From a virus, in the IMG/VR virus record IMGVR_UViG_3300025647_000085, positions 1-41,168 of that record: a DNA stretch of 41,168 nt, one strand, 5' to 3'. Positions within the stretch are counted from its first letter, which is position 1. Each line of letters opens with the position of its first letter. The notes under the pieces were generated by a model. That model did no database searches, was not told the origin of the DNA, and saw only the letters and a list, made by a program, of their open reading frames with translations. Shown here in pieces: positions 4,018 through 16,582 of the stretch. The translations under genes were made by a program, and so were the position numbers.

Positions 4018-4050
4018 GTTGTATCAAGTTGTATCAGCCGAGTTGTATCT
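4018..4050. repeat. GTTGTATCA direct repeats (probable integrase arm sites)
   Basis: Three copies of GTTGTATC lie at 4018, 4028 and 4042 (the first two extended to GTTGTATCA), spaced 10 and 14 bases. They overlap the 3' end and stop codon of the integrase gene. Short direct repeats next to the core are typical arm-type binding sites for tyrosine integrases. Confidence 0.6.
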
Positions 4051-5287
4051 TTGTTCTGCGCAACTCGATTACGGTGTTCACATCGGCGTTCTTGTCGCTG
4101 CGATCATACCGCTCTGTCATCGTCGCGCTGGCATGGTGTGCGAAGCGCTGGCGCTGCTCTGCCGTTGCCCCTGCGGCCTTGGCTTCCGTGACTGCACCGG
4201 CGCGACTGTCCATTGCATAGACCTCATCGGGCACGCCTGCCTTGCGCGCAAACTTGCGGAAAGTGGTCTGCCAGTGCCGCTTGGTGTATGGGCGGCCGCT
4301 GTCCATCTTAATGACCGGCCCAACTCTCTGGTCCATCGGGATCTGCATCAAGCGGGCGCGGATCTCTGGAACGATCGTAAGGTCAAACACCATTGCATCC
4401 GGCGATGACTTTTCAGTTTTAGATGGGGTCTTGCTCAAGGTGGTGATCTTCTGGTCGATCATGTCCCAGGTCATGCCATCAGCCCAACGCTGCTTGCCGC
4501 TATCATCAAGCCACTGGCCCCGCACGTCCACAGCACGCAAGCCAAACTCCCACTGGCAACTAAACCCAAGGGCAAAGCCTGTGTGCCCTGCTGCGTCTGC
4601 TGCTGCGATGATTGCCTGTGCCTGGTCGCGTGTCATGGAAACCTCTCTTCGGCGCGGTGTGGTGATCCGCATTTCTGACAAGATGTTTTTGATCCGCATG
4701 GCATCCGGCGCCTCGATGCGGACCCCGTGGCTAATGAGATAGCGCAAGGCTGTGAAGCGGTTGTGGATATGGTGTGTGGGATCGACGGGCCGCAGCGGTA
4801 GGTCGCGCTCTGCTCGGGCCGCATTATCTTCCTTGCGGCGGCTGATGAAGTTGTCGTTCATGGCCTTCTTCCACCGCATGAGGGTTTCAAAGTTGGTGTC
4901 TGCCAGCATGACGCCGCCAATGGCTTCCTCTAGGGGCTTGAGCGTTTGCAGATACCCCTCGCGCGTGCTGGCCTTCACGTTCTCGTTGAATGGCGAAAAC
5001 TCGTCAGTCTTGAACCGGCCGATAAGCCACAACCAAGACCCCGGCGTGACCAAAGCATCCTCACTGTCGTACCAGCGCAGCATTTCGCGTGTCAGTTCGC
5101 GCGCCTTGGACGCACGCTCGTTATCGCGGCCATCGCCTTCCTCGCCAACCAATCGCACGGTGTTCGAGTGGTATCCTGCCTCGATGTATTTCTTGGGGGC
5201 TCTCCAATAGAACCAACGCTTTGCCTTGCGAACGCATGGCGCATAAGACGGGTCGGACCCATCCATTAGATCATCATCAAAACGCAT
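4034..5287 (-). CDS. int: Tyrosine recombinase, phage integrase
   Basis: A 417-aa protein with the C-terminal catalytic fold of tyrosine recombinases: first Arg in GLRAVDV (R251), second Arg in MDSRAG (R362), His pair in FAHHASATM (384-385) and the Tyr nucleophile in TERYDR (Y394). The usual His of the HxxR box is replaced here (AMDSR). The N-terminal about 200 residues contain the core-binding, SAM-like region. It joins attP (adjacent) to a host tRNA-Thr gene. The start overlaps the 3' end of the excisionase-like gene by 11 bases, so integration and excision functions are co-transcribed leftward. Confidence 0.92.
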   Translation of the reverse strand: MRFDDDLMDGSDPSYAPCVRKAKRWFYWRAPKKYIEAGYHSNTVRLVGEEGDGRDNERASKARELTREMLRWYDSEDALVTPGSWLWLIGRFKTDEFSPFNENVKASTREGYLQTLKPLEEAIGGVMLADTNFETLMRWKKAMNDNFISRRKEDNAARAERDLPLRPVDPTHHIHNRFTALRYLISHGVRIEAPDAMRIKNILSEMRITTPRRREVSMTRDQAQAIIAAADAAGHTGFALGFSCQWEFGLRAVDVRGQWLDDSGKQRWADGMTWDMIDQKITTLSKTPSKTEKSSPDAMVFDLTIVPEIRARLMQIPMDQRVGPVIKMDSGRPYTKRHWQTTFRKFARKAGVPDEVYAMDSRAGAVTEAKAAGATAEQRQRFAHHASATMTERYDRSDKNADVNTVIELRRTKIQLG

Positions 5288-5534
5288 TTAAATTTTCTCC
5301 TGAAAGTGGTGTTGTGGTGTCTGCCCCTTTGTGTGAGGCACCATCAGGATCAGCTATACGGCGGCGTTTTGCAATCCACGCTTCTAAATCAGCACGAAGC
5401 GTCATTCCAACAAGCTTATCTTTCTTCGGAAAACCATCGCGCTCAAGCTTTGGCCGGTGCGTGCGCAGCCATGTGACTTTGCGGCCAAGGTGGTAGGCCA
5501 CAAGGGTATCGGGAAGGTAAGCTGGCTCAATCAT
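5277..5534 (-). CDS. Excisionase-like small DNA-binding protein
   Basis: An 85-aa protein with a MerR/AlpA-like winged-helix layout: LPDTLVAYHLGRKVTWLRTH as helix-turn-helix, followed by a basic segment and a LRADLEAWIAKRRR helix. This size and its position immediately upstream of the integrase (11-base overlap) fit a recombination directionality factor. A good ribosome binding site (GGAG) precedes ATG. An alternative is a small transcription regulator of the int operon; sequence alone cannot separate the two. Confidence 0.7.
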   Translation of the reverse strand: MIEPAYLPDTLVAYHLGRKVTWLRTHRPKLERDGFPKKDKLVGMTLRADLEAWIAKRRRIADPDGASHKGADTTTPLSGENLNAF

Positions 5535-5535
5535 G

Positions 5536-5919
5536 TCAGGCTCCTTTGTCGCCTTTGATCTGGATCAGCCCTGCGGCGTACCAGCGCGATTGTGTCTCAT
5601 GCAGGCCTTCAAGCAAGCGCATGGCAAAGGCTGTCGGGTAATTCTCTTCAATGTATCGGCGGCGCATGGTGTCGCGCCCATCAAGAATATCGTGGCAATG
5701 CTGGCAACCGGCCGCAACGGACAGATCTGAAACCTTAGACCCCATGCTCTTGCCGGATACTGGAAGGTGGCATCCGACAACGGTATCTGCGTGCGCGCAG
5801 CGATAGCCGGGATAGAAGGATGAAACGCGAAGTGTGCATGGCATCCCCCGTATGGCGTCAAGAATGGTGCGTGATCGAACCTTTGGCAGAAGAGCGGGGT
5901 TGGTTATGTGCATACTCAT
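5536..5919 (-). CDS. YbcO-family (DUF1364) phage nuclease
   Basis: A 127-aa protein with the layout of E. coli DLP12 YbcO: an N-terminal MPCTLRV strand, then VGCHLPVSGKSMGSKVSDL, GCQHCHDILDGR (CxxCH with the conserved acidic/Arg motif), and a C-terminal EGLHETQSRWYAAGLI helix. YbcO is a metal-dependent nuclease of the His-Me finger type found in the recombination regions of lambdoid phages. Expected role: processing of recombination or replication intermediates. The start overlaps the upstream gene by ATGA, and only one base separates it from the excisionase-like gene. Confidence 0.75.
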   Translation of the reverse strand: MSMHITNPALLPKVRSRTILDAIRGMPCTLRVSSFYPGYRCAHADTVVGCHLPVSGKSMGSKVSDLSVAAGCQHCHDILDGRDTMRRRYIEENYPTAFAMRLLEGLHETQSRWYAAGLIQIKGDKGA

Positions 5920-6068
5920 TTACTGGCCTTTTTCTTGTCGATGTTGATTTCTGCGTGCGGGTCATCCCCTGCGATTGCGGCTATGTCGGCCTCGCGCTCC
6001 GCTGCGATGCGCTGCCATTCTGCTCTGCGATCGAGGGCGGCTTGGATTGCTTGCGCTGCTGGCTTCAT
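5916..6068 (-). CDS. Hypothetical 50-aa helical protein
   Basis: A short ORF, MKPAAQAIQAALDRRAEWQ at the start and KKKASK at the end, predicted to be one long charged helix. A purine-rich ribosome binding site (GAGGGG) precedes ATG. Both ends overlap neighbours by ATGA junctions. No family is recognised; it may be a partner or regulator of the YbcO-like nuclease it is coupled to. Confidence 0.6.
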   Translation of the reverse strand: MKPAAQAIQAALDRRAEWQRIAAEREADIAAIAGDDPHAEINIDKKKASK

Positions 6069-6268
6069 GCCAATCCCCTCAACTTCGACTGATACGGGCG
6101 TGGTGCGAGGTCTTCCGCTGTTGGGACAGAAGGCTGAAATTCAATAACCGGCGCGGGAGTTCCAAATCTGTCCATGTTGCTTTGCCCTGGCTGAACGCCG
6201 CAATGCCGGCATGAAAAGACCCCTGCGCGGCGCCGACTTGTTGGGCCGCTGCACTTCCTGCACTTCAT
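6065..6268 (-). CDS. Small zinc-finger protein
   Basis: A 67-aa protein, started at the Met preceded by GGAGATTGCC rather than the in-frame Met at 6280. MKCRKCSG and FSCRHCG form two CxxC pairs about 15 residues apart, a compact zinc ribbon. The C-terminal 35 residues look disordered. It is the first gene of the int operon and lies just downstream of a large inverted repeat that could be its operator. It may be a regulator; function unproven. Confidence 0.6.
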   Translation of the reverse strand: MKCRKCSGPTSRRRAGVFSCRHCGVQPGQSNMDRFGTPAPVIEFQPSVPTAEDLAPRPYQSKLRGLA

Positions 6269-6292
6269 GGCAATCTCCATAAATTCGAGAAC

Positions 6293-6350
6293 GGGTTAAC
6301 CAGATGGTCACTTCGCCTTTGAAGCCCCACGCTATTCATCTGGTTAACCC
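6293..6350. promoter_or_regulatory. 14-bp inverted repeat with GGTTAACC centres, candidate operator
   Basis: GGGTTAACCAGATG at 6293-6306 and its exact reverse complement at 6337-6350 are separated by 30 bases. Each arm contains the palindrome GGTTAACC. The element lies between a terminator-like hairpin and the first gene of the int operon, where a promoter/operator is expected. I could not identify confident -35/-10 boxes. Confidence 0.5.
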
Positions 6351-6381
6351 CGCTCGCAGAGGGGAATCGTTACCCTCGATT

Positions 6382-6405
6382 AAAGAAGGCCGCATGGCCT
6401 TCTTT
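6382..6405 (-). terminator. Hairpin terminator of the leftward early operon
   Basis: AAAGAAGGCC and GGCCTTCTTT form a perfect 10-bp stem with a four-base loop. On the minus strand the stem ends in TTCTTTAAT, a modest T-rich tail. It lies 50 bases after the stop of the last gene of the leftward recombination operon and before the int operon. It may act in both directions. Confidence 0.55.
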
Positions 6406-6455
6406 GGCGCTCCTATGGGGCTAGGCACTAGGTCACGCCGTAATTCCTTGATCGG

Positions 6456-6872
6456 TTATTCGGTTACTGCGTCGATAGTGCGGTCTGTCAGAGACAGCTT
6501 GGCAATGCTGTCCTCATGGTCCGCAAACATATTCTTGCGCAGTTCCGCCTTCTTCCGGCGCAACTCGGCCGCTTGAACCGCGCTGATTGCCTCTGCCTCG
6601 CTGGCAAGGATCGCATCAAACCCAGCCGAATTTACGCGCTGCACAATCCATTTGATCGGGGTGCTGCTGTCGAAGTTCACGTCAACGTCTACGGCTGTCA
6701 CCTTCGCAACCGTCATCATGTGGCGCGTGCCTGACTGCACAACGACAAGATCATTCAGCTTTACGCTAGGGTCCATCGTTTTGAATACTTCGGAAGTGCC
6801 ATGCTCTTCATACTTTGCCTCGATAGCGCGGGCCTGATCGTTAATCAGAAAGACGATTTTAGAATTATCCAT
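6456..6872 (-). CDS. Hypothetical phage protein
   Basis: A 138-aa soluble protein. The N-terminal half has alternating strands (LNDLVVVQSGTRHMMTVAKV) resembling a small beta-barrel. The C-terminal third is a charged helix (AAELRRKKAELRKNM). The ribosome binding site CGGAGAT before ATG is the same as those of the two genes upstream, supporting a common operon. No function is recognised. Confidence 0.65.
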   Translation of the reverse strand: MDNSKIVFLINDQARAIEAKYEEHGTSEVFKTMDPSVKLNDLVVVQSGTRHMMTVAKVTAVDVDVNFDSSTPIKWIVQRVNSAGFDAILASEAEAISAVQAAELRRKKAELRKNMFADHEDSIAKLSLTDRTIDAVTE

Positions 6873-6893
6873 TTTTGTATCTCCGTTTTTTTC

Positions 6894-7136
6894 TTATTTG
6901 GTGACGTGCTTGACGGACCACATGGCCGCTTCTTCGATCTTGGTAATCGCCAACGAAAGTTCTCGGCTTGAGCCGATAGCTTGGCAGGCCGCGATAAAGG
7001 CTGCTGCGTGGTCTTTCAGGGCAACCATGTTTGCCTTTTCCATGTCAGTCAGGACGCGGTACTGGTGGCGTACAGCGTTGTTCGCTGTCCGGTCATCGCT
7101 GGCGCCATCGACGGTATTTTGTGCTTTGTCGTTCAT
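6894..7136 (-). CDS. Acb2/Tad1-hairpin-like protein (candidate anti-CBASS/anti-Thoeris sponge)
   Basis: An 80-aa helical protein. The core HQYRVLTDMEKANMVALKD, a middle helix, and the ending SRELSLAITKIEEAAMWSVK match the pattern I associate with small phage proteins of the Acb2/Tad1 helical-hairpin group. Known members form hexamers that sequester cyclic-nucleotide or gcADPR signals and so block CBASS or Thoeris defence. This assignment is from remembered family pattern, not a search, and ligand residues cannot be verified here. A ribosome binding site (CGGAGAT) precedes ATG. Its place in the early leftward operon suits an anti-defence protein. Confidence 0.55.
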   Translation of the reverse strand: MNDKAQNTVDGASDDRTANNAVRHQYRVLTDMEKANMVALKDHAAAFIAACQAIGSSRELSLAITKIEEAAMWSVKHVTK

Positions 7137-7195
7137 GTCTCAAATCTCCGTTATATTGTTTTTGACTAAGTGCTTCCTGACTTGGGAAGCTGTAT

Positions 7196-7360
7196 TTATG
7201 CCGGCTCTTTGACTGTTGGTACGATTGCGAGGATGATTAGGGCGAATACCCCTGCCATAGCGCCGGCGAATGCCCAGCCTGCGACTGATCTGTTTTTTTG
7301 CCCAGCCACATATCCGCAGATAGTTGCGAACACGATTGCCATGATGATGATGATTTCCAT
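7196..7360 (-). CDS. Small predicted membrane protein (54 aa, two helices)
   Basis: MEIIIIMAIVFATICGYVAG and GAMAGVFALIILAIVPTV are two hydrophobic helices separated by a short polar turn (QKNRS). CGGAGATCC before ATG is a good ribosome binding site, matching the neighbours. The hairpin topology with short loops is like a class II holin, but its location in the early operon argues against a simple lysis role. Function unknown. Confidence 0.6.
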   Translation of the reverse strand: MEIIIIMAIVFATICGYVAGQKNRSVAGWAFAGAMAGVFALIILAIVPTVKEPA

Positions 7361-7390
7361 TTTAGGATCTCCGTTTGGTTTGCAGTTGGT

Positions 7391-7687
7391 TTAAGGATTT
7401 CCGCCCATGCCACAGAAGCCTACCTCTGGCTCTGTCGGGACGCCGTACTTGGCGCGGTCTGCCATCAAGATGGCCGTGGCCTCTTTGAGCCGGTTACTAC
7501 CGCCTCCAAGTTCTGCGGTAATGGTCTTGAGCGCTGCCGCAAATCGCGGATCACTCGCCATAAGCGGCTTCCACCGCCACAGCGCACAGGATGGGCCGCG
7601 GCAACCCATCACGGCCTCCTTGGCGGCAAAGGTGCGTGCGAGTGGGCAAAGCAACGTGGCGGCGTCTTCTGGGGTGCGTGCGGTCAT
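7391..7687 (-). CDS. Hypothetical Cys-containing phage protein
   Basis: A 98-aa protein with a conserved-looking N-terminal block, CPLARTFAAKE then CRGPSCALWRW; the cysteine trio (LLCPL, CRGPSC) could bind metal. The remainder is helical. This arrangement is familiar from small proteins in rhodobacterial prophage early operons, but no function is known to me. The start overlaps the upstream gene's stop through ATGA. Confidence 0.65.
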   Translation of the reverse strand: MTARTPEDAATLLCPLARTFAAKEAVMGCRGPSCALWRWKPLMASDPRFAAALKTITAELGGGSNRLKEATAILMADRAKYGVPTEPEVGFCGMGGNP

Positions 7688-7917
7688 TTGCGGGCCTCCA
7701 TCATGGCGTCGGCTAAAGCGTAAGCTTCTTGCGCCAGGTCAATGGGTGATAGCCCGCTCATTTCAGGATTGCCCCAATACCCCGATGTAATCCCGGCAGC
7801 GGCCTGCCCCGCGAACCAATCGCGCAATCGCATTCCAACGGAATATTCTGCTGATCCATCCGCCAAAAGGACAGTGTGAGGAAACGCCGGCGTCCCGTCT
7901 TGTGTTGTATGTGGCAT
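7684..7917 (-). CDS. Hypothetical phage protein
   Basis: A 77-aa protein. The segment GMRLRDWFAGQAAAGITSG followed by a C-terminal ALADAMMEAR helix is a pattern common in small phage proteins of many proteobacteria (usually annotated as hypothetical). No catalytic residues are evident. It is coupled to the downstream gene by a four-base overlap and lies three bases after the upstream gene. Confidence 0.7.
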   Translation of the reverse strand: MPHTTQDGTPAFPHTVLLADGSAEYSVGMRLRDWFAGQAAAGITSGYWGNPEMSGLSPIDLAQEAYALADAMMEARK

Positions 7918-7920
7918 GCT

Positions 7921-8175
7921 CTAACCCTCCACTCTGATTTTGATGTAGACGCATTCCATGTCGGAACCCTCGATGCTGTCAGGCTTTATCTCGATGCTGT
8001 CTGCATCAATCTCGGACGCAATAATGGCGATGTAGCTGCACACGTCCTGCAATGCCCGGTCATCACTGATGCCCGCGACAAACGCTTCAACATAAGTCTC
8101 GGTTTCGGCGTCTGGGGCTACGTTGAAAGCCTGTTCCAGAAGTTCAACCGCCTCGTCTTTTGTGAACGGCCTCAT
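7921..8175 (-). CDS. Hypothetical protein
   Basis: An 84-aa acidic protein, started at the Met (MRPFTKDEAVELLEQAF) that overlaps the recT stop by ATGA; upstream Mets at 8214 and 8202 would overlap recT by about 40 bases and lack support. The N-terminal helices are followed by strands (SIEIKPDSIEGSDMECVYIK). No family is recognised. Coupling to recT suggests a recombination-related role, but there is no direct evidence. Confidence 0.6.
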   Translation of the reverse strand: MRPFTKDEAVELLEQAFNVAPDAETETYVEAFVAGISDDRALQDVCSYIAIIASEIDADSIEIKPDSIEGSDMECVYIKIRVEG

Positions 8176-9086
8176 TCCGCGGCCCGCCGCGCGCCGTGCC
8201 ATGCGCCAATCCAATCGGTTGCGGCATCAAGGTCGTCTTCATACGGGCAGTCTGTGCTATCTGCCCCAGCGTGGTATGCTGTCATGCCCTCGTCCCAAGC
8301 CTTAGATCCTGGTGCGCCCTCACCCCACTCAACTGCCTCCGTCCAATGGCTTGGGACATCAATCTCTTGGGCATCCTCAACTTGATCTACATCAACCGGC
8401 TCCGCCTCGGTTGCCTCCGGCATGACCTGACCCCGTGCGGCCATAGCGCGGCGCTGCAAAGCTGTTGGCTCCGTTGGCGTCACGTCACGCAATCCATCGG
8501 CGTGTTGGATTTCCTCTTTCTCATAGACGCCAAGCAAAACGTCTGGAAAATGGCGGCGACACATTGCACGCGCAGAATAATACCAAAGCTGCTGGTCTGG
8601 ATCTGACTTCCACAGCGGCGAGTTCTTCGTGGTGATCGAGCCGATTTCAGGCGAACGGTATTCGATGGTGTCACCGTCTTCTTGCGAAATGGCTGTCAGC
8701 ACGCATACACGCTTGGCCCCCTCGCCCTCGTACTTGCCCTTGAGGCGCCCCTTGATCGGTGCGCGCTGCTCAATGACAGCGTGGATAAGCTGCGCCTCGT
8801 AGGCGATGCGGTCGTTGACCATGTAGGACTTGTTGGCCACAGCAAAGGGGTCCATGTGCCAGTTCATCGCTTGCAGGGATACGGCCAAGCAAGCGCCGGG
8901 GGTGGCGCGCAAGTGCTTCGGCACAGCCTGACCGGATACTGCCATCAGTTTTGAAAACTCCATGACCTGGCCCATGTCCTTAAACTCCAAACCGCCAAGT
9001 TTGGATGAAACCTGCGTGCCGCCTGCAATCGCAAGGTCGGTCTTGGCGCTGATGCGCTCTTCGATGGTCTGCGTTCTATCGTTCAT
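8172..9086 (-). CDS. recT: RecT-family single-strand annealing protein with C-terminal RMF-like domain
   Basis: A 304-aa protein. Residues about 20-215 show RecT features: FSKLMAVSG, PKHLRATPGACLAVSLQA, WHMDPFAVANKSYMVNDRIAYEAQLI and the SARAMCRRHFPDVLLG block. RecT proteins anneal complementary DNA strands with a partner 5'-3' exonuclease, here the gene immediately upstream (ATGA overlap). After an acidic linker (about 225-250) the last 45 residues (AWDEGMTAYHAGADSTDCPY ... WIGAWHGARR) match the ribosome modulation factor/CrpP-type fold pattern (G..A..AG....CPY....W.G.W..A). I infer a fusion; no frameshift or separate start for the tail is seen. Confidence 0.88.
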   Translation of the reverse strand: MNDRTQTIEERISAKTDLAIAGGTQVSSKLGGLEFKDMGQVMEFSKLMAVSGQAVPKHLRATPGACLAVSLQAMNWHMDPFAVANKSYMVNDRIAYEAQLIHAVIEQRAPIKGRLKGKYEGEGAKRVCVLTAISQEDGDTIEYRSPEIGSITTKNSPLWKSDPDQQLWYYSARAMCRRHFPDVLLGVYEKEEIQHADGLRDVTPTEPTALQRRAMAARGQVMPEATEAEPVDVDQVEDAQEIDVPSHWTEAVEWGEGAPGSKAWDEGMTAYHAGADSTDCPYEDDLDAATDWIGAWHGARRAAE

Positions 9087-10222
9087 GGTGCTGCCCCTGC
9101 TGTGTTCATTTCTTCAAGAAGTTGTTCGTGCTGCCACTTCGGGCGCTGATACGCTCCAATGTCGTCACCCGGTCCCGGCCAATGGCCAGAAGCCAAGCAC
9201 TCGGCAAAGCGGGTGATTGCACGGCGATTGCGGAATTGACCAAGACGCAGATCTTCCTCGCCAATCTCGCGCACAATGACGTGGTGAGGCTTTGCATCGC
9301 ATTGGGCGATGATGCCCACGACTTCCGGCCATTGACCGGTCAGCGCTTCAAAGCACTCGGCCGCAAACGCCATCTGCATATCGTAACCGTGATCGGTGAT
9401 GCGATTGTCCACCAAGCGGTAATTGAATGGTCTGCCCTGCGTGTTCATCTTTTTGTAATCGGACAGGCTTCCATCGAAGTTAACCGTATCTGGGCGGGCC
9501 AAAAGCCATAGCCCGCTACGCTCATCCTTCACGGCCATTGTGACTTCGGGGATGCCGCTCATCACGGCCTCGGCGGCGGGATCTGCTGCCAGCACCTTGC
9601 CCATGTCTTCAATCATGGTGATTTCGGCGTCTGTAAGCGGCGTGCGGCCATCGGCCTCAATCGCGTCCCAGAAAGCCACGCGGTCCACAAGGGCCAGCAA
9701 CGCATCGGCATCGCCTTGGCTCAACGCTTCACGTCCGTCATCCTCGACCTGCTGCCAGAAGTCTACGCTCTCCATTGCGGCGGGGCTGGCGGTGCCGGTA
9801 GATGCCGCCTTGATCTGTGCGGCCGTGGGCTTGCGCGGCTTCTCGTCGGGCAGGATCATAAATCCAGATAGATCCCCGTTACCCTTGGCGCGGAAGTTCT
9901 CAAGCTGCTTTTCAGTTGGGCGGCTTGGCTTGTCCTTTGGAAGCACAAGGAAATACTTCCCCACTTCGTCCATACCCCCTTCAACGTATGCGGCCATAGC
10001 GCGGCCCAAGAGCAAGGCGGTCTTGTCGTCCTGCTCCCACCGATCTGGGTTAAGCTGGTGGAACGCCCAAACATCGGCCGGGGTGGCCAGTTCCATCTTG
10101 CGCAGCACGCCGGAAGTCACCGATGGGCCATCGCAAGGCTGGCTGTGGTGGCGGTCGAGTGACATTTGGTAAAAGCCGTTCTCGGTGATTTTCTCACCAT
10201 CCGCTAAAATTCGAATTTCCAT
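9083..10222 (-). CDS. RecE-like exonuclease, PD-(D/E)XK fold
   Basis: A 379-aa protein, started at MEIRILADGEKI; the longer in-frame start at 10273 would place a strong hairpin in the coding region. The C-terminal domain carries the nuclease motif D...DYK in ARPDTVNFDGSLSDYKKM, followed by the helix DMQMAFAAECFEAL. The N-terminal HSQPCDGPSVTSGVLRKME is typical of the YqaJ/RecE-like (DUF3799) group. Expected role: 5'-3' digestion of dsDNA to load the neighbouring RecT. The middle portion (about 140-190) is low-complexity linker. Confidence 0.85.
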   Translation of the reverse strand: MEIRILADGEKITENGFYQMSLDRHHSQPCDGPSVTSGVLRKMELATPADVWAFHQLNPDRWEQDDKTALLLGRAMAAYVEGGMDEVGKYFLVLPKDKPSRPTEKQLENFRAKGNGDLSGFMILPDEKPRKPTAAQIKAASTGTASPAAMESVDFWQQVEDDGREALSQGDADALLALVDRVAFWDAIEADGRTPLTDAEITMIEDMGKVLAADPAAEAVMSGIPEVTMAVKDERSGLWLLARPDTVNFDGSLSDYKKMNTQGRPFNYRLVDNRITDHGYDMQMAFAAECFEALTGQWPEVVGIIAQCDAKPHHVIVREIGEEDLRLGQFRNRRAITRFAECLASGHWPGPGDDIGAYQRPKWQHEQLLEEMNTAGAAP

Positions 10223-10249
10223 GATGCAGTTCCTAAGTTTGAATGATTT

Positions 10250-10283
10250 CCCCTGCCGGCCAGGGAGAAGCAACCGGCAGGGG
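10250..10283 (-). other. Strong stem-loop in the exonuclease-recT leader
   Basis: CCCCTGCCGG and CCGGCAGGGG form a perfect 10-bp GC-rich stem with a 14-base loop. It lies between the stop at 10313 and the exonuclease ATG at 10222. No T-run follows on the minus strand, so a simple terminator is unlikely; an mRNA processing, stability or attenuation element is more plausible. Confidence 0.6.
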
Positions 10284-10312
10284 GGTCTTACCCGCTCGTA
10301 GAGGCTGGCGGG

Positions 10313-10582
10313 CTATGCTTTGGCGTACTCCCAATCGACAAGGCCTTGGAGTTGGGCCATGCGATAGGCGCCGCGCTCTGACCTGACTTTCCAAAACCGC
10401 CCTGTTTTCTGGCAGGTGAGAACGCCTTGCGACCTTGCGGGCTTGCCTTGCTTTTCCAGAATGTCGCAAACCTCTTCCTCATCAATTCCAAGGATGGATG
10501 CTATTTCCTCTGGGGATCTGGTTTCAGCCATGCCGACAATGCGGCCAATAGAGGTTTTCGTTCCTGCGAAAATCATCGCCAT
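10313..10582 (-). CDS. Hypothetical protein with helix-turn-helix
   Basis: An 89-aa protein. Residues about 20-50 (MAETRSPEEIASILGIDEEE) look like a helix-turn-helix in which the RSPEEIASILG helix is followed by a turn and a recognition helix. The C-terminus (RGAYRMAQLQGLVDWEYAKA) is helical. GGAG stands seven bases before ATG. The start overlaps the upstream stop by ten bases. A small DNA-binding regulator is likely; target unknown. Confidence 0.6.
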   Translation of the reverse strand: MAMIFAGTKTSIGRIVGMAETRSPEEIASILGIDEEEVCDILEKQGKPARSQGVLTCQKTGRFWKVRSERGAYRMAQLQGLVDWEYAKA

Positions 10583-10728
10583 CCCTTGTTCTCCCGAAGT
10601 TCCTTACGGCGCAATTCGCAAATGCTTTCCGCTGATTTGTCATAACGGCCATCATCTTTTAGTTGCTGGATGAAGCCTGCGAGCTCGCCCTCGTCTATTA
10701 CTGTGGCCGCCTTGTCTTTGAGTGTCAC
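10573..10728 (-). CDS. Hypothetical 51-aa protein, GTG start
   Basis: The GTG start overlaps the upstream TGA (GTGA), which fixes the reading. The protein is short, charged and helical (GELAGFIQQLKDDGRYDKSA, ending RRKELRENKGWR). No family is recognised. An alternative ATG at 10833 in the same frame would run through the tiny membrane ORF upstream and is rejected. Confidence 0.5.
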   Translation of the reverse strand: MTLKDKAATVIDEGELAGFIQQLKDDGRYDKSAESICELRRKELRENKGWR

Positions 10729-10853
10729 AGGCCGGTCCCAAACGTGTAGAAGATCAATTCCATGACTGCGCGGCCGATCACAATTCCAAGGACTGCTGCG
10801 CAGCCTGACAAAATGAGCGTGATGGAAAGCCAAAGTGGCGTGATGCGGTTCAT
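10725..10853 (-). CDS. Tiny predicted membrane protein or lipoprotein (42 aa)
   Basis: MNRITPLWLSITLILSGCAA begins with a basic residue and a hydrophobic stretch ending in LSGC, which resembles a lipobox, and continues with a hydrophobic segment (VLGIVIG). It could therefore be a small lipoprotein or a single-pass membrane protein. The start is coupled to the upstream zinc-finger gene by ATGA, and its stop overlaps the next GTG. Its function is unknown. Confidence 0.5.
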   Translation of the reverse strand: MNRITPLWLSITLILSGCAAVLGIVIGRAVMELIFYTFGTGL

Positions 10854-11020
10854 TTCAGGGCCCCGCCAACACGGATCGAATTAGCGCCGGAGCCGCCACA
10901 AGCGTAGCATGGCTCGTATAGGGTGGTGCCGCGCTCTGTATGCTCTTCGGTGTACTTCTTGCCCTTGCAGGAGCCGCATGACCGGTCTGTATCTGGAAGG
11001 TATGTTGTGGTGTCTTGCAT
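10850..11020 (-). CDS. Small CxxC zinc-finger protein, first gene of the leftward operon
   Basis: A 56-aa protein, started at MQDTTTYLPD (GGAGA ribosome binding site, about five bases upstream); an in-frame ATG at 11059 lies inside the pL operator and is rejected. CGSCKGKKY and CYACGGSG are DnaJ-type zinc-finger repeats (CxxCxG). It is the first ORF behind pL, the slot that in lambda holds the antiterminator N region, but nothing here resembles N. Role unknown. Confidence 0.6.
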   Translation of the reverse strand: MQDTTTYLPDTDRSCGSCKGKKYTEEHTERGTTLYEPCYACGGSGANSIRVGGALK

Positions 11021-11049
11021 CTGGCTCTCCGCGTTCGTGGTGTTCCAGA

Positions 11050-11078
11050 GTATTTCCATATTGGAATGCCCGCGTCAA
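11050..11078 (-). promoter_or_regulatory. pL, leftward early promoter
   Basis: On the minus strand, TTGACG (11078-11073) is followed by a 17-base spacer and AAATAC (11055-11050). The operator TTCCAATATGGAA sits exactly between the boxes. The block TTCCAATATGGAAATA(C/G)TCTG is shared with pR on the other side of the repressor gene. The start of transcription is predicted near 11043, about 23 bases before the first ATG. Confidence 0.65.
11054..11066. promoter_or_regulatory. Repressor operator OL1
   Basis: TTCCATATTGGAA is a perfect palindrome (TTCCA-N3-TGGAA) lying between the -35 and -10 boxes of pL. It is identical (reverse strand) to the operator in pR at 12108-12120. Confidence 0.7.
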
Positions 11079-11088
11079 TATAAAAAGC

Positions 11089-11101
11089 TTCCAAATTGGA
11101 A
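11089..11101. promoter_or_regulatory. Repressor operator OL2
   Basis: TTCCAAATTGGAA is a perfect TTCCA-N3-TGGAA palindrome. Its centre is 35 bases from that of OL1, the same spacing as between the two strongest sites on the right side. A TATTAT sequence directly beyond it (11103-11108) could be the -10 box of a rightward promoter for the gene at 11122. Confidence 0.65.
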
Positions 11102-11121
11102 ATATTATGCACCTATAAGGT

Positions 11122-11439
11122 GTGCAATGGTTTTCACATCAGAATTATAAGGGTGGTGGTGGCTTGGGTAAGCAGGCTCGATTTGCGCTGGAATATGTTG
11201 AAAATTACGTTGGCGGTATGTCCAGCGAGGATAGGCGCGCGTCGATGCCGCGCTGGCTTGAGCGGATTGCCGCTCTAGGGCGGGCACATAATCGGCTGGG
11301 TATGGGTGAACGCGAAAATGCGCTCCTTGAGCACTTGGTTGAGTGCGTTGTTTGGGGTGAATGCTTTGAGGCCGGTCAAGACTGGGCGCACCGATTGGTT
11401 CGCCGCAGTTCGATCGTTAGGGAATATATAAGAAATTAA
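11122..11439 (+). CDS. Hypothetical protein convergent with the repressor gene
   Basis: A protein of up to 105 aa lying between pL and the 3' end of the repressor gene, which it overlaps by four bases tail to tail. The core (MPRWLERIAALGRAHNRLGM ... VVWGECFEAGQDWAHRLVRR) is helical with plausible composition. The start is uncertain: GTG at 11122 lacks a spaced ribosome binding site, TTG at 11164 follows AAGGGTGG, and ATG at 11218 is also possible. No family is recognised. It might modulate the lysis-lysogeny switch, given the location. Confidence 0.5.
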   Translation: MQWFSHQNYKGGGGLGKQARFALEYVENYVGGMSSEDRRASMPRWLERIAALGRAHNRLGMGERENALLEHLVECVVWGECFEAGQDWAHRLVRRSSIVREYIRN

Positions 11440-12029
11440 ACAATGTTAGCGAGTTCGCGCGGCAAATGCAGCAAAATACGAGAGGCCCATTCCAGCGCAA
11501 TATCGTACTGACTATCGGCCTCTGGGCTGATGGCTAGAAGGTTGTAAAGTCCCGGCTCACTTCCTCCCTTCACCCGCTTTACCCACTTGGCGCCACTTGC
11601 TTCACAGCAAATGCAATTTTTCCCGATTGCATCTTGTGTGACCTTGGGCGATCCACCGGCATAAAAGATCAGATCGCCTTCGTCAAACGTGGGCGTCATC
11701 GCATTGCCCACAACTTCAATGGCAACGATATTGCCTTCCGGCAATAGGTCTGGGGCTTCAACATAGCGCAGCGTGGCGTCACTGATACACGGCAGGGGCT
11801 CTAAGACCTTGGCACCAGGGCCTATCTGGCCGATTACTGGTATGAGGCGGCGCGGCTCTTCTGGAAGGCGGTAGCCAAAGAAGTGCCGGATGCGGTCTGC
11901 CTCGCTTGATTGCAGCACGCGGTAGCCTGTCAAAACCTTATTCATTTGCACAGACGTAAGGCCAATAGCTTCGGCCAGGGCTGCCTGTGATAAGCCCCGC
12001 GCTTCAAGTTGTGATCTAACCCAATCCAT
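11436..12029 (-). CDS. CI-like phage repressor with inactive S24 peptidase domain
   Basis: A 197-aa protein, started at MDWVRSQLEARG because GGAGG lies eight bases before this ATG. Residues about 10-35 are a Cro/CI-type helix-turn-helix (LSQAALAEAIGLTSVQMNKV). Residues about 62-190 are a LexA/S24 fold (IPVIGQIGPGAKV, then VVGNAMTPTFDEGDLIFY and GAKWVKRVKGG). The catalytic Ser of the usual GDSM motif is Ala here (A110); the Lys is present (K148 or K151). The usual Ala-Gly cleavage pair is Pro-Gly. The protein should dimerise and bind the flanking TTCCANNNTGGAA operators but should not self-cleave after DNA damage. Confidence 0.85.
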   Translation of the reverse strand: MDWVRSQLEARGLSQAALAEAIGLTSVQMNKVLTGYRVLQSSEADRIRHFFGYRLPEEPRRLIPVIGQIGPGAKVLEPLPCISDATLRYVEAPDLLPEGNIVAIEVVGNAMTPTFDEGDLIFYAGGSPKVTQDAIGKNCICCEASGAKWVKRVKGGSEPGLYNLLAISPEADSQYDIALEWASRILLHLPRELANIV

Positions 12030-12050
12030 TTTCATAACCTCCACAATAAA

Positions 12051-12063
12051 TTCTATTTTGGCA
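12051..12063. promoter_or_regulatory. Repressor operator OR3 (degenerate)
   Basis: TTCTATTTTGGCA matches the TTCCA-N3-TGGAA consensus at eight of its ten specified positions. It lies just upstream of the repressor start, over the likely repressor promoter (minus-strand TAGAAT at 12049-12054), so it would mediate autoregulation. Confidence 0.45.
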
Positions 12064-12072
12064 TGTCACCAT

Positions 12073-12085
12073 TGCTATATTGGAA
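12073..12085. promoter_or_regulatory. Repressor operator OR2
   Basis: TGCTATATTGGAA has a perfect right half and a degenerate left half (two mismatches). Its centre is 22 bases from OR3 and 35 from OR1. Confidence 0.55.
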
Positions 12086-12094
12086 CTAGCCCTC

Positions 12095-12124
12095 TTGACA
12101 TCAATGCTTCCAATATGGAAATAG
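12095..12124 (+). promoter_or_regulatory. pR, rightward early promoter
   Basis: TTGACA at 12095-12100 is followed by an 18-base spacer and AAATAG at 12119-12124. The operator OR1 lies in the spacer. Transcription would start near 12131, practically on the A of the cro ATG at 12132, so the mRNA may be leaderless. Confidence 0.65.
12108..12120. promoter_or_regulatory. Repressor operator OR1
   Basis: TTCCAATATGGAA is a perfect palindrome of the TTCCA-N3-TGGAA type located between the -35 and -10 boxes of pR. Confidence 0.7.
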
Positions 12125-12131
12125 TCTGTGC

Positions 12132-12401
12132 ATGAAAGCAGAACAAATCCCCAAACCCCTCTACGGCCAAGCGGCGCACGTTGTTCGCAAGTGCGGCGGC
12201 ATTCAGTCAACTGCAAGGCTGATTGGGCGTCATCCATCGTGGGTTCTGAAATGGACCTACGCCAAGGAAAGGGGCGGCCGTGGCGGGCTTATCCCCGACG
12301 AGGACCAGCAAATCCTTATGCAAGCTGCGCGGGAGGGCAGGGCTGATCTTTGCCCCTCCGACTTTTTCCCACCAGAAACCCGCAATGAGACTGCGGATTA
12401 A
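12132..12401 (+). CDS. Cro-like (YdaS-type) transcriptional regulator
   Basis: An 89-aa protein. The segment AAHVVRKCGGIQSTARLIGR followed by HPSWVLKWTYAKERGG is the YdaS/Cro-type helix-turn-helix. The C-terminal half ends in a DFFPPETR tail. It is the first gene under pR and divergent from the repressor gene, the classic position of cro. No ribosome binding site is evident, and the predicted start of transcription coincides with ATG, so a leaderless message is likely. It should compete for the same operators and turn off repressor synthesis. Confidence 0.75.
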   Translation: MKAEQIPKPLYGQAAHVVRKCGGIQSTARLIGRHPSWVLKWTYAKERGGRGGLIPDEDQQILMQAAREGRADLCPSDFFPPETRNETAD

Positions 12402-12419
12402 CCCAAGAAGGCAAATAAT

Positions 12420-12965
12420 ATGGCGAAAGCACAAAGCGAAGGTGAACAAGTTCGGCGGGCATTCGATGGCCCCACGCTGGAACATGACAAGCTGATCGGT
12501 CACATCGGCGCGCGGATTAGCGAAGAACATTCGCGGTCCTCTGACGGTAGCGAGAGCGCGGCCAAGGTATCGGCGTTCATCGAAGAGACTGGCATGAATA
12601 GCCAAGCGTATTCGTGGATGAAAACCATCATCAAAAAGCTTCCCAAGAAAGACGGGCAGTCAAAGGCGATGGACGTTATTCGCTCGATCGAGGCCGCGTT
12701 GCCGATGATTAAGGCTCATGTGGCCGGTCAATCTACCGCTGAAATGTTCCCCGATGAAGCGCCTGCACCTGTGGATGCGCCAAAGGCTGAACCAAAAGCT
12801 GCGGCCAAAAAAACCAACATTGAGAAGTTCACGCCAAAGGCAAAGGTCGCCAAGGCCGAACCTGATCCTGTTCCGGCTGAAACTCCTGCCGAAAGTGAGC
12901 CTGTTGATCTGGCCGACGATCAGGACGACTTCGATCGCCAACTTGCTGCGGCTTCTGACGAATGA
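12420..12965 (+). CDS. Hypothetical early protein with disordered Ala/Pro/Lys tail
   Basis: A 181-aa protein. The N-terminal about 100 residues are helical (VSAFIEETGMNSQAYSWMKT then KKDGQSKAMDVIRSIEAALP). Residues 105-170 are low-complexity (repeated AEPKA/KAEP). It is preceded by AAGAAGG. The genes before and after handle regulation and Holliday junctions. The helical domain looks like a conserved phage early-gene module, but I know no function. Confidence 0.65.
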   Translation: MAKAQSEGEQVRRAFDGPTLEHDKLIGHIGARISEEHSRSSDGSESAAKVSAFIEETGMNSQAYSWMKTIIKKLPKKDGQSKAMDVIRSIEAALPMIKAHVAGQSTAEMFPDEAPAPVDAPKAEPKAAAKKTNIEKFTPKAKVAKAEPDPVPAETPAESEPVDLADDQDDFDRQLAAASDE

Positions 12966-13453
12966 AGGTTTTGGCGTTCGACACCGCCACAAAAACGGGG
13001 GTCTGCTTCGGTGAAGCAGGCTCTCGGCCTAAGCTGTGGTCGGTGGTTCTCGGCAAGGTGGAGTGGCCAGATCGCTTTTCCAAGACCCTCCGCATGACTG
13101 CTCATTACATCGAGCAATTCAAGCCAGACCTGATCGCGGTCGAGGCGTTTGTCGGCGGGCCCAAGGCTAATACATCGCTGGCAGGCCTTGTAGCGTGCGT
13201 GCAGGGCGAGGCTGTGCGTCTTGGTGTGCCTGTGGTCACTTATTACCCTGCCACTATCCGCAAGCACTTCCTCGGCGGTGTGAGCCGGTCAAACAAGACC
13301 CCTATCAAGTCACAAGTGTTTGCGCGGTGCCGGATGCTGGGCTGGGACGTGCGCGACACTGACGCGGCCGATGCCGGGGCGCTGTGGGATTATACCTGCT
13401 CCATGCACAGTAAGGACCACCAGATGACGAGCGTGGGCGGGCTGTTCCATTGA
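12962..13453 (+). CDS. RuvC-like Holliday junction resolvase
   Basis: A 163-aa protein with an RNase H-like fold. Strand one AFDTATKTG carries Asp7, VEAF carries Glu61, and RDTDAADAGALW supplies the C-terminal acidic pair (D134, D137). This is the full RuvC catalytic set. Its short length is usual for RuvC. It resolves branched DNA during replication, recombination or packaging. It overlaps the upstream gene by ATGA and the downstream small helix-turn-helix ORF through TTGA. Confidence 0.85.
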   Translation: MKVLAFDTATKTGVCFGEAGSRPKLWSVVLGKVEWPDRFSKTLRMTAHYIEQFKPDLIAVEAFVGGPKANTSLAGLVACVQGEAVRLGVPVVTYYPATIRKHFLGGVSRSNKTPIKSQVFARCRMLGWDVRDTDAADAGALWDYTCSMHSKDHQMTSVGGLFH

Positions 13454-13620
13454 TAATTAGACCCTGGGCTGCCTGCCACGACCTTCTTCGATCTGGTCAC
13501 GGGGTCGAAGACATAGCTTTCAAGCTGAACTGCACCACGGAACGGGTTCGGCGCGAAGTACGGAAACTTAGAAATAGCGGCCAGTTGAAGGCTGTACTGA
13601 ACCGAGAGGACGAAAAATGA
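13450..13620 (+). CDS. Small helix-turn-helix protein, TTG start
   Basis: A 56-aa ORF reading MIIRPWAACHDLLRSGHG at the start. GVEDIAFKLNCTTERVRREV is a clear helix-turn-helix of the type that opens Trp-repressor-like or sigma-like DNA-binding proteins. TTG is the only usual start available and overlaps the ruvC stop (TTGA); the stop overlaps the ATG of the next gene (ATGA). Those junctions are the main support. It may assist origin recognition by the replication protein that follows. Confidence 0.55.
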   Translation: MIIRPWAACHDLLRSGHGVEDIAFKLNCTTERVRREVRKLRNSGQLKAVLNREDEK

Positions 13621-14435
13621 GCAATACTGTTTCTGTGTTTGTTAAGCGGCGTGTGATTGGATCGGCAACGCTCAAGGGCGTGCTGCTCTACATGGCCGAT
13701 AATGCCAGCGATGACGGTACGGGGATCTGGACTTCAAAGGGCAACATTGCGCGCGATTTGGAGTTGAGCAAGCGGGCTGTGCAGATAGCAATCCAAAACT
13801 TGATGGAGTTTGGCATTGTATTGGAGGATGGCACGCGGAAGTGCGTGAATGGCTTTACGATGGAGTATTCCATCTGTCTTGATACCCTGAATAGGCTTCC
13901 TTCAACGCGCGAAAACCTATCGAAAGGGACGGGTGAACCACATTCACCGGTGAACCACATTCACGGGTACGGGCGAACCACGTTCACGGGTACCGGTGAA
14001 CCACATTCACCCAAACCATCCTTAGAACCATCCTTAGAACCATCCAAAGAGCGTGATGGCTTATTCGATGCAATGGAAACACCAGAAGCAAAGAAGAGCG
14101 GTGATGGGTTTGATGAGTTCTGGAATGCCTATCCAAAGAAGGCTGGGAAGCCAGCGGCACAGAAGGCTTATCAAAAGGCAATCAAGAATGGCGCGGCGCC
14201 GGATGCAATCATCACGGGGGCCAAGCGTTATGCGCTGTGGCTGTCTACGGGCGGGCCCAAGGATTTCCGGCCGACTGTCAAATTCCCGCAAGGCTGGCTG
14301 AACGATGAGCGCTGGAATGATGCTGATCTGCCAGCGTTGCCACCCGAGAAGCCAAAGTTTGCAGTTGGGTCGCCGGAAGATCTAGCAGAGCGGCGCAAGC
14401 GGCTTAGTCCGCAATTTGGTGAGGTGGTGCGGTGA
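13617..14435 (+). CDS. Replication initiator, lambda O-like, helix-turn-helix protein
   Basis: A 272-aa protein. Residues about 1-90 form a winged helix (GSATLKGVLLYMADNASDDG, SKGNIARDLELSKRAVQIAI). A repetitive linker (100-145) corresponds to DNA iterons in the gene. The C-terminal domain (FDEFWNAYPKKAGKPAAQKA ... KFPQGWLNDERW) is the helicase-recruiting domain usual in phage O/DnaT-like proteins. In lambda the origin lies inside the O gene in the same relative place. Expected role: bind the iterons and load the DnaB-like helicase encoded downstream. Confidence 0.8.
   Translation: MSNTVSVFVKRRVIGSATLKGVLLYMADNASDDGTGIWTSKGNIARDLELSKRAVQIAIQNLMEFGIVLEDGTRKCVNGFTMEYSICLDTLNRLPSTRENLSKGTGEPHSPVNHIHGYGRTTFTGTGEPHSPKPSLEPSLEPSKERDGLFDAMETPEAKKSGDGFDEFWNAYPKKAGKPAAQKAYQKAIKNGAAPDAIITGAKRYALWLSTGGPKDFRPTVKFPQGWLNDERWNDADLPALPPEKPKFAVGSPEDLAERRKRLSPQFGEVVR
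13932..14050. other. Probable replication origin: four iterons plus direct repeats inside the O-like gene
   Basis: Four copies of GGTGAACCACATTCAC start at 13932, 13949, 13972 (GGCGAACCACGTTCAC) and 13995; each is an imperfect palindrome. Steps are 17, 23 and 23 bases. They are followed by three 12-base direct repeats of ACCATCCTTAGA starting near 14015 (the third diverges after ACCATCC), a lower-GC segment that could melt. Position and layout parallel lambda ori. Confidence 0.75.
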
Positions 14436-14590
14436 TGAAAAAGAAAATGACCGAAGATGAAATTAACGCAAAGCGTACACCCGAGGGAGGCTGGACCAAG
14501 GCGCAACTGAAAGAATGGGGCGTCGAGTGGCCACCGAAAAAGGGCTGGAAGCTAAAACTGATGGGTAAAAAGGCTTGGGGAAATAAATGA
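14435..14590 (+). CDS. Hypothetical 51-aa basic protein
   Basis: A Lys/Trp-rich ORF (start MKKKMTEDEINAKRTPEGG, then WTKAQLKEWGVEWPPKKGW). Its ATG overlaps the upstream TGA (TGATG) and its TGA overlaps the next ATG. The composition suggests nucleic-acid or protein binding in the replication complex. No family is recognised. Confidence 0.6.
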   Translation: MKKKMTEDEINAKRTPEGGWTKAQLKEWGVEWPPKKGWKLKLMGKKAWGNK

Positions 14591-14943
14591 TGGGCGATAT
14601 TTTCAGCGATAGCATGTTCAATGCCCCGCCCCGCAAGCATGAGCCCAAGCTGTGCGAGTTCTCCACGCAGGATCAAGATGAGTTGCGTGATGCCATGATG
14701 GGCAAGATCACGAAGGCCAAGGTGACGCACGGCTACACCAACACCAGCGTCAATAGGAAAAACATCTTGGACATTGTGATAAAGCACGGCCCTATCAATC
14801 CCGATGGTGTGAATAACAAGCTGGAAAGCAAGTTAAGCCGGGGCTGCGTTGGCAAGATTTTGAAGGAATTGTACGAGGCTGATTTGGTCGGTCGTGAACA
14901 TGCCTTGGTTGGCGTTGTTTCCTATTGGTATTTTGCAAAATGA
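14587..14943 (+). CDS. Hypothetical winged-helix-like protein
   Basis: A 118-aa protein. The C-terminal half (RKNILDIVIKHGPINPDGV then KILKELYEADLVGREHALVG and a final aromatic strand) reads as a winged helix-turn-helix, suggesting DNA binding. The N-terminus is polar and probably unstructured. It sits between the initiator and the helicase, a slot that often holds helicase loaders (as lambda P), but no loader motif is seen. Confidence 0.6.
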   Translation: MMGDIFSDSMFNAPPRKHEPKLCEFSTQDQDELRDAMMGKITKAKVTHGYTNTSVNRKNILDIVIKHGPINPDGVNNKLESKLSRGCVGKILKELYEADLVGREHALVGVVSYWYFAK

Positions 14944-15191
14944 GAAAAAACATTTACCGCCGCTTAACCAACCCGACAAAAGAAGATGGTGTCCGCATTG
15001 GCAATGTTTCAAAAATGATTGGCAGGCTTGAGGATGAACAACCTGGCGCTGGTCATTGGTTGCTGGATCAAGTTCCAAAGGACGCAAACGTGGCCGATGT
15101 GATTTTCGGCTTGGCCCTTGATGCTTTTCTTGACGAAAAAGAGGCCAAGTCTGCGGCCATTCTTGCCAAGGTGAGGGCTAAACAGAAATGA
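14940..15191 (+). CDS. Hypothetical early protein
   Basis: An 83-aa protein, started at the Met that overlaps the previous stop (ATGA). It is basic at the N-terminus (MRKNIYRRLTNPTKEDG) and helical at the C-terminus (VADVIFGLALDAFLDEKEAK). It is coupled to the helicase gene by a further ATGA overlap. It could be a helicase partner; that is inference from position only. Confidence 0.6.
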   Translation: MRKNIYRRLTNPTKEDGVRIGNVSKMIGRLEDEQPGAGHWLLDQVPKDANVADVIFGLALDAFLDEKEAKSAAILAKVRAKQK

Positions 15192-16582
15192 GCAATGGTC
15201 ACTTCAACATCGAGGCGGAACAACAGTTGCTCGGCGCTATCCTGTGCGACAATTCGGTTTTCGATCTGGTTTCCGATCTGATCGAAGAGGATCACTTCTA
15301 TGACCCCCTTCATGCTCGGATATTTGGCATCTGCAAGGCGCGCATCGTCAAGCAACACTTGGTTTCGCCGGTATCTCTGAAATACACGCTGGAAGGCGAT
15401 GAAGGGTTGGCGCAGGTGGGCGGCCCGAAATACCTTGCCAGAATGGCGGGCTCTGCAATCGGCAAGTCTACGGCCCGCGACTATTCAAAGATCATTGTCG
15501 AGGGTTCCGTGCGGCGCAGGCTTCTTGAGGCGTCCAGCAAGGCATCATTTGACCTTAATGCTGGCAGTGAGGCGGATGAAGTGCGCGCTGGCCTCCTGTC
15601 GGCCCTATACGCGCTGCCAGAGGGGCATAGTGAGCAAAGTTCTGTGTCATTGCTCAAGGCGGTGACAAGGGCGGTCACGCAGGCCAATGAAGCTTATCAA
15701 GGCAACACGTCATTTCTGAAAACCGGTGTTCCGGCGCTGGATGGTGTCATCAAAGGACTTGGGCCTGGTGATGTGATGCTTCTGGGCGGGGCAACCTCGA
15801 TGGGGAAAACCTCGCTGGCTCTGGAAATTGCGGGCAACGTGGCAATCAAGCAAAAGCTGCATGTTGGTTTCTGGTCGCTGGAAATGTCGGATGACCAATT
15901 GGCCACGCGGATGCAGTCGGCTTGGTCGCGTGTTCCCTATGCGGCTCTGCGCGATGCTGCTGCGATGGATGAGGCTGATTTTCGCAAGTGGGTCGATGCT
16001 GGTAAAGAGATAAGTTCTGCCCCCATGCGTATCATCCCAAAGCATATTCGTGATATTGCGGCGGGTCATGCGGCGATGCGCCGGGTGAAGCGTGAATTGG
16101 GCGGCAAGCTTGATCTGGCAATTGTGGACTATGCGCAGCTTATCCGCGGCACGGGAAAAAGCCGGTTCGAGCAAATGACAGAGGTTTCCATTGGGCTCAA
16201 GACGCTGGCCGGAATGCTGGAATGCCCCCTGATTGCGCTGGTGCAGTTGTCCAGAACGATTGGTGAGCGGGATGACAAGCGGCCTCAACTCTCGGACATC
16301 AAAGAAACAGGCCAGTTTGAAAACGATGCGGATCAGGTCGTGTTCTGCCACAGAGAGGGTTATTGGCTGCAAAGGCAAGGGCCAAAGCTGGACAAAAACG
16401 GGCAAATCACCGATGGCGCGCGCACCGATTGGGAAGCTGACGTTGCCGCGTCCAACAATGTGATGGAAATAATCGTGCGAAAAAACCGCCACGGTAGGCT
16501 GGCGGCGGCGCAAGTTGGGTTCCATGACGCAACAAACCGCTTCTGGGATTTGAGCCAGAGCCAAGAAGAAGGAATGTACTGA
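15188..16582 (+). CDS. dnaB: Replicative DNA helicase, DnaB-like
   Basis: A 464-aa protein. The N-terminal domain (EAEQQLLGAILCDNSVFDLV) is the DnaB helical domain. The RecA-like domain has Walker A GGATSMGKTS (200-209), Walker B DLAIVDYAQL (309-318), and QLSRTIGERDDKRPQLSDIK with the downstream ETGQFENDADQV that complete the DnaB motif set. Length matches the family. It unwinds DNA ahead of the host replisome; no primase is encoded, so host DnaG is presumably used. Confidence 0.92.
   Translation: MSNGHFNIEAEQQLLGAILCDNSVFDLVSDLIEEDHFYDPLHARIFGICKARIVKQHLVSPVSLKYTLEGDEGLAQVGGPKYLARMAGSAIGKSTARDYSKIIVEGSVRRRLLEASSKASFDLNAGSEADEVRAGLLSALYALPEGHSEQSSVSLLKAVTRAVTQANEAYQGNTSFLKTGVPALDGVIKGLGPGDVMLLGGATSMGKTSLALEIAGNVAIKQKLHVGFWSLEMSDDQLATRMQSAWSRVPYAALRDAAAMDEADFRKWVDAGKEISSAPMRIIPKHIRDIAAGHAAMRRVKRELGGKLDLAIVDYAQLIRGTGKSRFEQMTEVSIGLKTLAGMLECPLIALVQLSRTIGERDDKRPQLSDIKETGQFENDADQVVFCHREGYWLQRQGPKLDKNGQITDGARTDWEADVAASNNVMEIIVRKNRHGRLAAAQVGFHDATNRFWDLSQSQEEGMY

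Follow-up and report, generated by a model that had tools for sequence, protein, structure and literature searches.

The annealing protein Red-beta of phage lambda carries, behind a flexible junction, a small C-terminal helical domain (residues 178-261; PDB 6M9K, with lambda exonuclease) that folds as a three-helix bundle and binds the exonuclease encoded alongside. C-terminal mutations that weaken this interaction impair recombination of double-stranded DNA, and a truncated Red-beta lacking its C-terminus anneals but does not recombine, tying its function on double-stranded DNA to the exonuclease interaction (PMC9512822, PMC5052646). Annealing proteins of different superfamilies have a common C-terminal helix-turn-helix domain, which has been ascribed to domain shuffling (PMC8093625). 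RecET-type pairs are marked by a DUF3799 RecE-like exonuclease encoded directly upstream of a RecT-type protein. The ribosome modulation factor RMF (PF04957; PDB 2JRM, 6H4N), in contrast to the domain considered below, is a free, basic, ribosome-bound protein; in P. aeruginosa its homologue BatR has a protein kinase as binding partner and no role in ribosome hibernation (PMC13411936). Here we describe, in a 41,168-nucleotide stretch of viral DNA (positions 1 to 41,168 of IMG/VR record IMGVR_UViG_3300025647_000085; the window), a RecT-type annealing protein whose C-terminal tail has the RMF/CrpP fold. We propose, with a probability of about one half, that the tail is an adaptor domain that would bind the cognate exonuclease (or a complex containing it) and thereby load the annealing core on fresh single strands.

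Tail domain of the annealing protein

The gene at 8172-9086 is an open reading frame of 304 codons on the minus strand, with an ATG start and a single uninterrupted frame. Its predicted parts are as follows.

8475..9086, minus strand: RecT-type single-strand annealing core, residues 1-204, up to the conserved RDVTP (PF03837, phrog_561)
8310..8474, minus strand: linker, acidic and predicted to be disordered, residues 205-259 (net charge, model confidence)
8172..8309, minus strand: RMF/CrpP-fold tail, residues 260-304 plus the stop codon (PF04957, NF041886, AlphaFold2 model, PDB fold matches)

Profile searches place the core with RecT (PF03837, 2.1e-14; the RecT-like phrog_561, 8.6e-60), and the best PDB fold match for a model of the full-length protein is the N-terminal domain of lambda Red-beta (7ujl), a weak one (E 0.016, probability 0.99). 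The linker, of some 55 residues, has a net charge of -10, and the predicted local distance difference test (pLDDT) score is below 50 over residues 219-255; the tail that follows is about 45 residues long. The preliminary description of a RecT domain, an acidic linker and a tail in one frame thus holds. The fusion is seen in independent contigs and in bacterial genomes, and a frameshift or assembly artefact was rejected. A second tail-like domain was looked for within the window and none was found.

Three lines of comparison support the assignment of the tail as an RMF/CrpP-fold domain. The Pfam RMF profile matches it over residues 262-301 (8184-8303), with E=1.1e-4 when the full-length protein is searched and 3.9e-6 when only the tail is; the score of 27.3 bits lies just below the Pfam cut-off of 27.9 bits. 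With NCBIfam Rmf/CrpP (NF041886) the value is 3.5e-6, so that the tail falls about 1 bit short of both curated cut-offs, but homologous tails in six relatives exceed that of Pfam, and of the 19 homologous tails all but one match RMF. A profile built from the 19 tails and compared with the PDB picks out the solved RMF chains, with values from 2.8e-7 to 6.7e-6, Escherichia coli RMF being the 2.8e-7 match, and no other credible match in that database. Finally, AlphaFold2 models the tail, with a mean pLDDT of 86.8, as two main helices arranged as in RMF, and a Foldseek comparison with the PDB ranks RMF structures in the first three places, with root-mean-square deviations of 1.1-1.7 Å, TM-scores of 0.58-0.68 and probabilities of 0.69-0.99. 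None of the Foldseek E-values reaches significance, which a query of only 59 residues would lead one to expect, and it is therefore the ranking and the TM-scores that serve as evidence. The RMF-like character of the tail, originally proposed from its signature alone, is borne out by the family profiles and by the predicted fold, and a chance motif was rejected on the same evidence. The tail is under purifying selection, with a ratio of nonsynonymous to synonymous substitution rates of 0.08-0.28.

The tail thus has in common with RMF its fold, its length of about 45 residues and the signature G..A...G....CPY....W..GW..A, but it is acidic and forms the C-terminal domain of a recombinase. Small phage proteins of the Rmf/CrpP fold (NF041886, NF041887, phrog_13106 and phrog_10492; for example gp60 of Agrobacterium phage Milano) belong to the same domain family and are likewise phage-borne, but they stand alone, whereas the tail is fused to an annealing protein. 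No such stand-alone protein was found in the neighbourhood of the recombinases of this study.

Some 20 related loci in phages or prophages have the fusion, and the RecT cores that carry the tail fall into four classes: class A resembles that of the window, class B is at about 35% to A, class C at about 25%, and class D is canonical RecT. Every protein closely related to the whole of this one (63-68% overall) has the tail; such proteins are encoded on viral contigs and by genomes labelled Rhodobacteraceae, Oceanicola sp. S124 and Hyphomonadaceae. The tail is also carried by a canonical RecT core (loci L021, L042 and L043; phrog_148 for the same protein) and by a distant RecT type (L036 and L081). 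The majority of RecT proteins in the sampled Rhodobacteraceae are without it, however, implying that although the architecture recurs, as the survey of RecT proteins suggested in the preliminary description brings out, the tail is not a general RecT extension. In a collection of named phages no record matched most of the protein, no match to the protein covered the tail and no named phage was found with the fusion, in contrast to the RecET-type pair of the window; the tail-only matches that were examined were stand-alone small proteins or unannotated. Scanning viral contigs at the DNA level with the degenerate motif CPYE...W..GW gave chiefly chance matches and a few real stand-alone RMF-like proteins. 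The tail alignment proved too divergent to serve in a scan of the collection. A literature search, with subscription literature mostly outside its reach, found nothing on the fusion, nor on CrpP together with Rmf.

Other proteins, of unassigned family, also have RMF-like domains at their C-terminus or close to it (L083, around L024; L065; L031; L040), some with NPY in place of CPY; it seems that alphaproteobacteria and their phages append the domain as a general module. Alphaproteobacterial genomes also encode small RMF-like proteins (L030, L034, L033, L025 and L026), of which several have the NPY motif. Other RecT proteins of Rhodobacteraceae (L069-L072) have a charged linker followed by a different short C-terminal segment, and there may be several kinds of C-terminal module on RecT proteins.

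Tail, core and exonuclease across related loci

Directly upstream of the RecT gene, both here and in relatives, lies the gene of the proposed partner, its stop codon sharing a 4-nt overlap with the start codon of RecT:

9083..10222, minus strand: RecE-like PDDEXK exonuclease, DUF3799 (PF12684, 2.1e-13; phrog_412 exonuclease VIII, 3.2e-43)

The frame opens at 10273 with TTG, and alignment with relatives places the start at a conserved ATG at 10222. A scan with the single exonuclease sequence gave no result; the data come from an alignment-based search, which returned 17 viral loci with close exonucleases and six with distant ones. At all 17 close loci the annealing protein carries an RMF-fold tail, across core classes A-D, the weakest match being that of L094 (E=0.002). 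One of these loci, L088, duplicates L087, and in the exonuclease tree the clade is accordingly represented by 16 close loci and the window, 17 rows. On this tree the close-clade rows with a tail are grouped with full support, while all eight sampled DUF3799 exonucleases that accompany a tail-less annealing protein fall outside the clade, several of them beside related cores of class A or C. The six distant loci, L009-L011 and L122 similarly have related A- or C-type cores and no tail.

Within the clade the cores have been exchanged repeatedly. The tree of tail-associated exonucleases requires 10 changes of core class, no fewer than with shuffled labels, and one such exchange can be followed at the nucleotide level: between L091/L096 and L093/L095 the exonuclease is 90-93% identical and the linker and tail 90-97%, compared with 54-56% for the core. 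Over 16 non-duplicate loci (Mantel, permutation), tail distances correlate with those of the exonuclease at r=0.89 (p=1e-4), and at r=0.88 when only pairs of different core class are used, compared with r=0.23 for tail and core. Since the core lies between the exonuclease and the tail, adjacency alone fails to explain this link; linkage would have favoured the core.

Could the tail simply be a passenger of the phage backbone, with cores exchanged by recombination at flanking sequence? Phage mosaicism is common, and tail distances do correlate with those of the two downstream genes (r 0.79 and 0.80). The tail nevertheless tracks the exonuclease more closely: their partial correlation is 0.81 and 0.66 after control for the two downstream genes, compared with 0.49 and 0.21 for tail and downstream gene given the exonuclease. 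Moreover, the tail lies inside a gene, is selected to be conserved, and has been kept in 17 of 17 cases through about 10 changes of core. We therefore regard a mere passenger as distinctly unlikely.

Several points nevertheless weigh against a tie between tail and exonuclease. Shared ancestry of the phage backbone accounts for part of the covariation, and the downstream genes used as controls are short and noisy. Close relatives among the 17 exonucleases reduce the effective sample size. Two loci also depart from the pattern: in L082 the tail accompanies an exonuclease that falls outside the clade and is 28-39% identical to it, and in L081 a partial exonuclease that is nearest to one with no tail partner (38% to L101).

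The end of the exonuclease offers a speculative site of contact:

9086..9121, minus strand: C-terminal peptide LLEEMNTAGAAP, candidate docking segment (clade consensus)

The consensus LeEMqtaGvAP is present in the 17 tail-clade exonucleases and is not seen in the eight exonucleases without a tail partner; the peptide is missing in L081. Its conservation is moderate, at the 81st percentile of 13-residue windows, and this clade-specific segment is thus a lead only.

The exonuclease of the window is about 59 residues longer than its relatives, with two stretches that resemble internal duplications (VLPKDKPSRPTEKQL / ILPDEKPRKPTAAQI and VDFWQQVEDDGREAL / VAFWDAIEADGRTPL). The surrounding region, 4034-16582, is a temperate-phage early region, with an integrase (weak PF00589), a repressor, a RuvC-like protein (weak PF02075), a replication initiator and a DnaB-like helicase.

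What the tail may bind

What, then, would the tail do? In the adaptor model the two proteins would form a two-component recombinase, in which the RecE-like exonuclease resects DNA ends and passes the single strand to the annealing protein. The RMF-fold tail, on its flexible acidic linker, would dock on the cognate exonuclease or its complex and, once bound, would load the annealing core onto newly made single strands, as the C-terminal bundle of Red-beta does with lambda exonuclease. If pairing specificity resides in the tail, RecT cores of differing class could replace one another without separating the tail from its exonuclease. The proposal builds on the fold, the fusion, the purifying selection on the tail, the exchange of cores with the tail kept and the tail-exonuclease covariation.

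The resemblance to Red-beta lies in the architecture, a small helical domain joined flexibly to an annealing core and an exonuclease encoded alongside, and in the proposed pairing role. The folds differ: the tail model gave no match to 6M9K in Foldseek, and its two main helices are not a homologous three-helix bundle. Moreover, the interaction is experimentally established for lambda and is proposed here from the evolutionary record. The proteins with the helix-turn-helix domain likewise present one C-terminal module on unrelated annealing cores, but theirs is a different domain, and the module described here has the RMF fold and covaries with the exonuclease. Sharing of modules between annealing proteins is thus already known; what is new is the fold, the covariation and the natural exchange of cores.

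According to the preliminary description, the tail might serve as a tether to ribosomes, to single-stranded nucleic acid or to a partner. A partner is favoured, the evolutionary evidence pointing to the adjacent DUF3799 exonuclease. An RMF-like attachment to ribosomes or RNA draws on the fold and the C-P-Y/W signature, but the charge is reversed: the tail has a net charge of -7 in the window and of -1 to -13 in homologues, compared with +4 for the aligned segment of E. coli RMF. The tail thus departs from a hibernation factor both in being fused behind RecT, instead of standing alone, and in the reversed charge of what in RMF is a basic rRNA-binding surface. RMF-like matches are also scarce in possible hosts (at least 8 of 385 sampled alphaproteobacteria and at least 5 of 40 relatives of one host genome; lower bounds, as the searches scored part of the candidates), and the RMF homologue BatR is itself no hibernation factor (PMC13411936). 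The reversed charge and these scarce matches make tethering to ribosomes or nucleic acid unlikely, and for ribosomes or RNA we consider it very improbable indeed.

The negative charge is present in all homologues, from -4 to -14 in the linker and from -1 to -13 in the tail, and linker and tail might together act as an intramolecular mimic of nucleic acid, covering the annealing groove or tuning filament formation. A charge effect needs no folded, conserved RMF domain, however, and a mimic would have to suit four core classes, whereas the tail covaries with the exonuclease; we think this explanation unlikely.

Alternatively, the tail may bind some other protein, such as the host SSB or a phage replication protein, and recruit the annealing protein to replication forks. 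The tails of L081 and L082, with their other exonucleases, would fit such a partner. It does not fit the finding that tails resemble one another in step with the exonuclease, not with the core, and beyond what the two downstream genes account for; the tail-less RecT proteins of the same bacterial family also imply that the host as such does not require the tail. A partner other than the exonuclease is therefore somewhat unlikely.

Implications for recombinase pairing

Beyond lambda Red, little is understood of what makes a phage exonuclease and an annealing protein a working pair, or of what limits the movement of recombineering systems between bacteria. We suggest, more tentatively than for the adaptor role itself, that evolution has recast a ribosome-hibernation fold as an exchangeable specificity adaptor choosing the exonuclease of an annealing protein, the cores being replaced freely while the pairing piece is kept. 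With four core classes, one tail family and one exonuclease clade, these loci constitute a natural swap experiment, and the set makes it possible to test directly whether a 45-residue module encodes the pairing. They also provide a lead for the many unexplained phage proteins of the RMF/CrpP fold, which may bind proteins.
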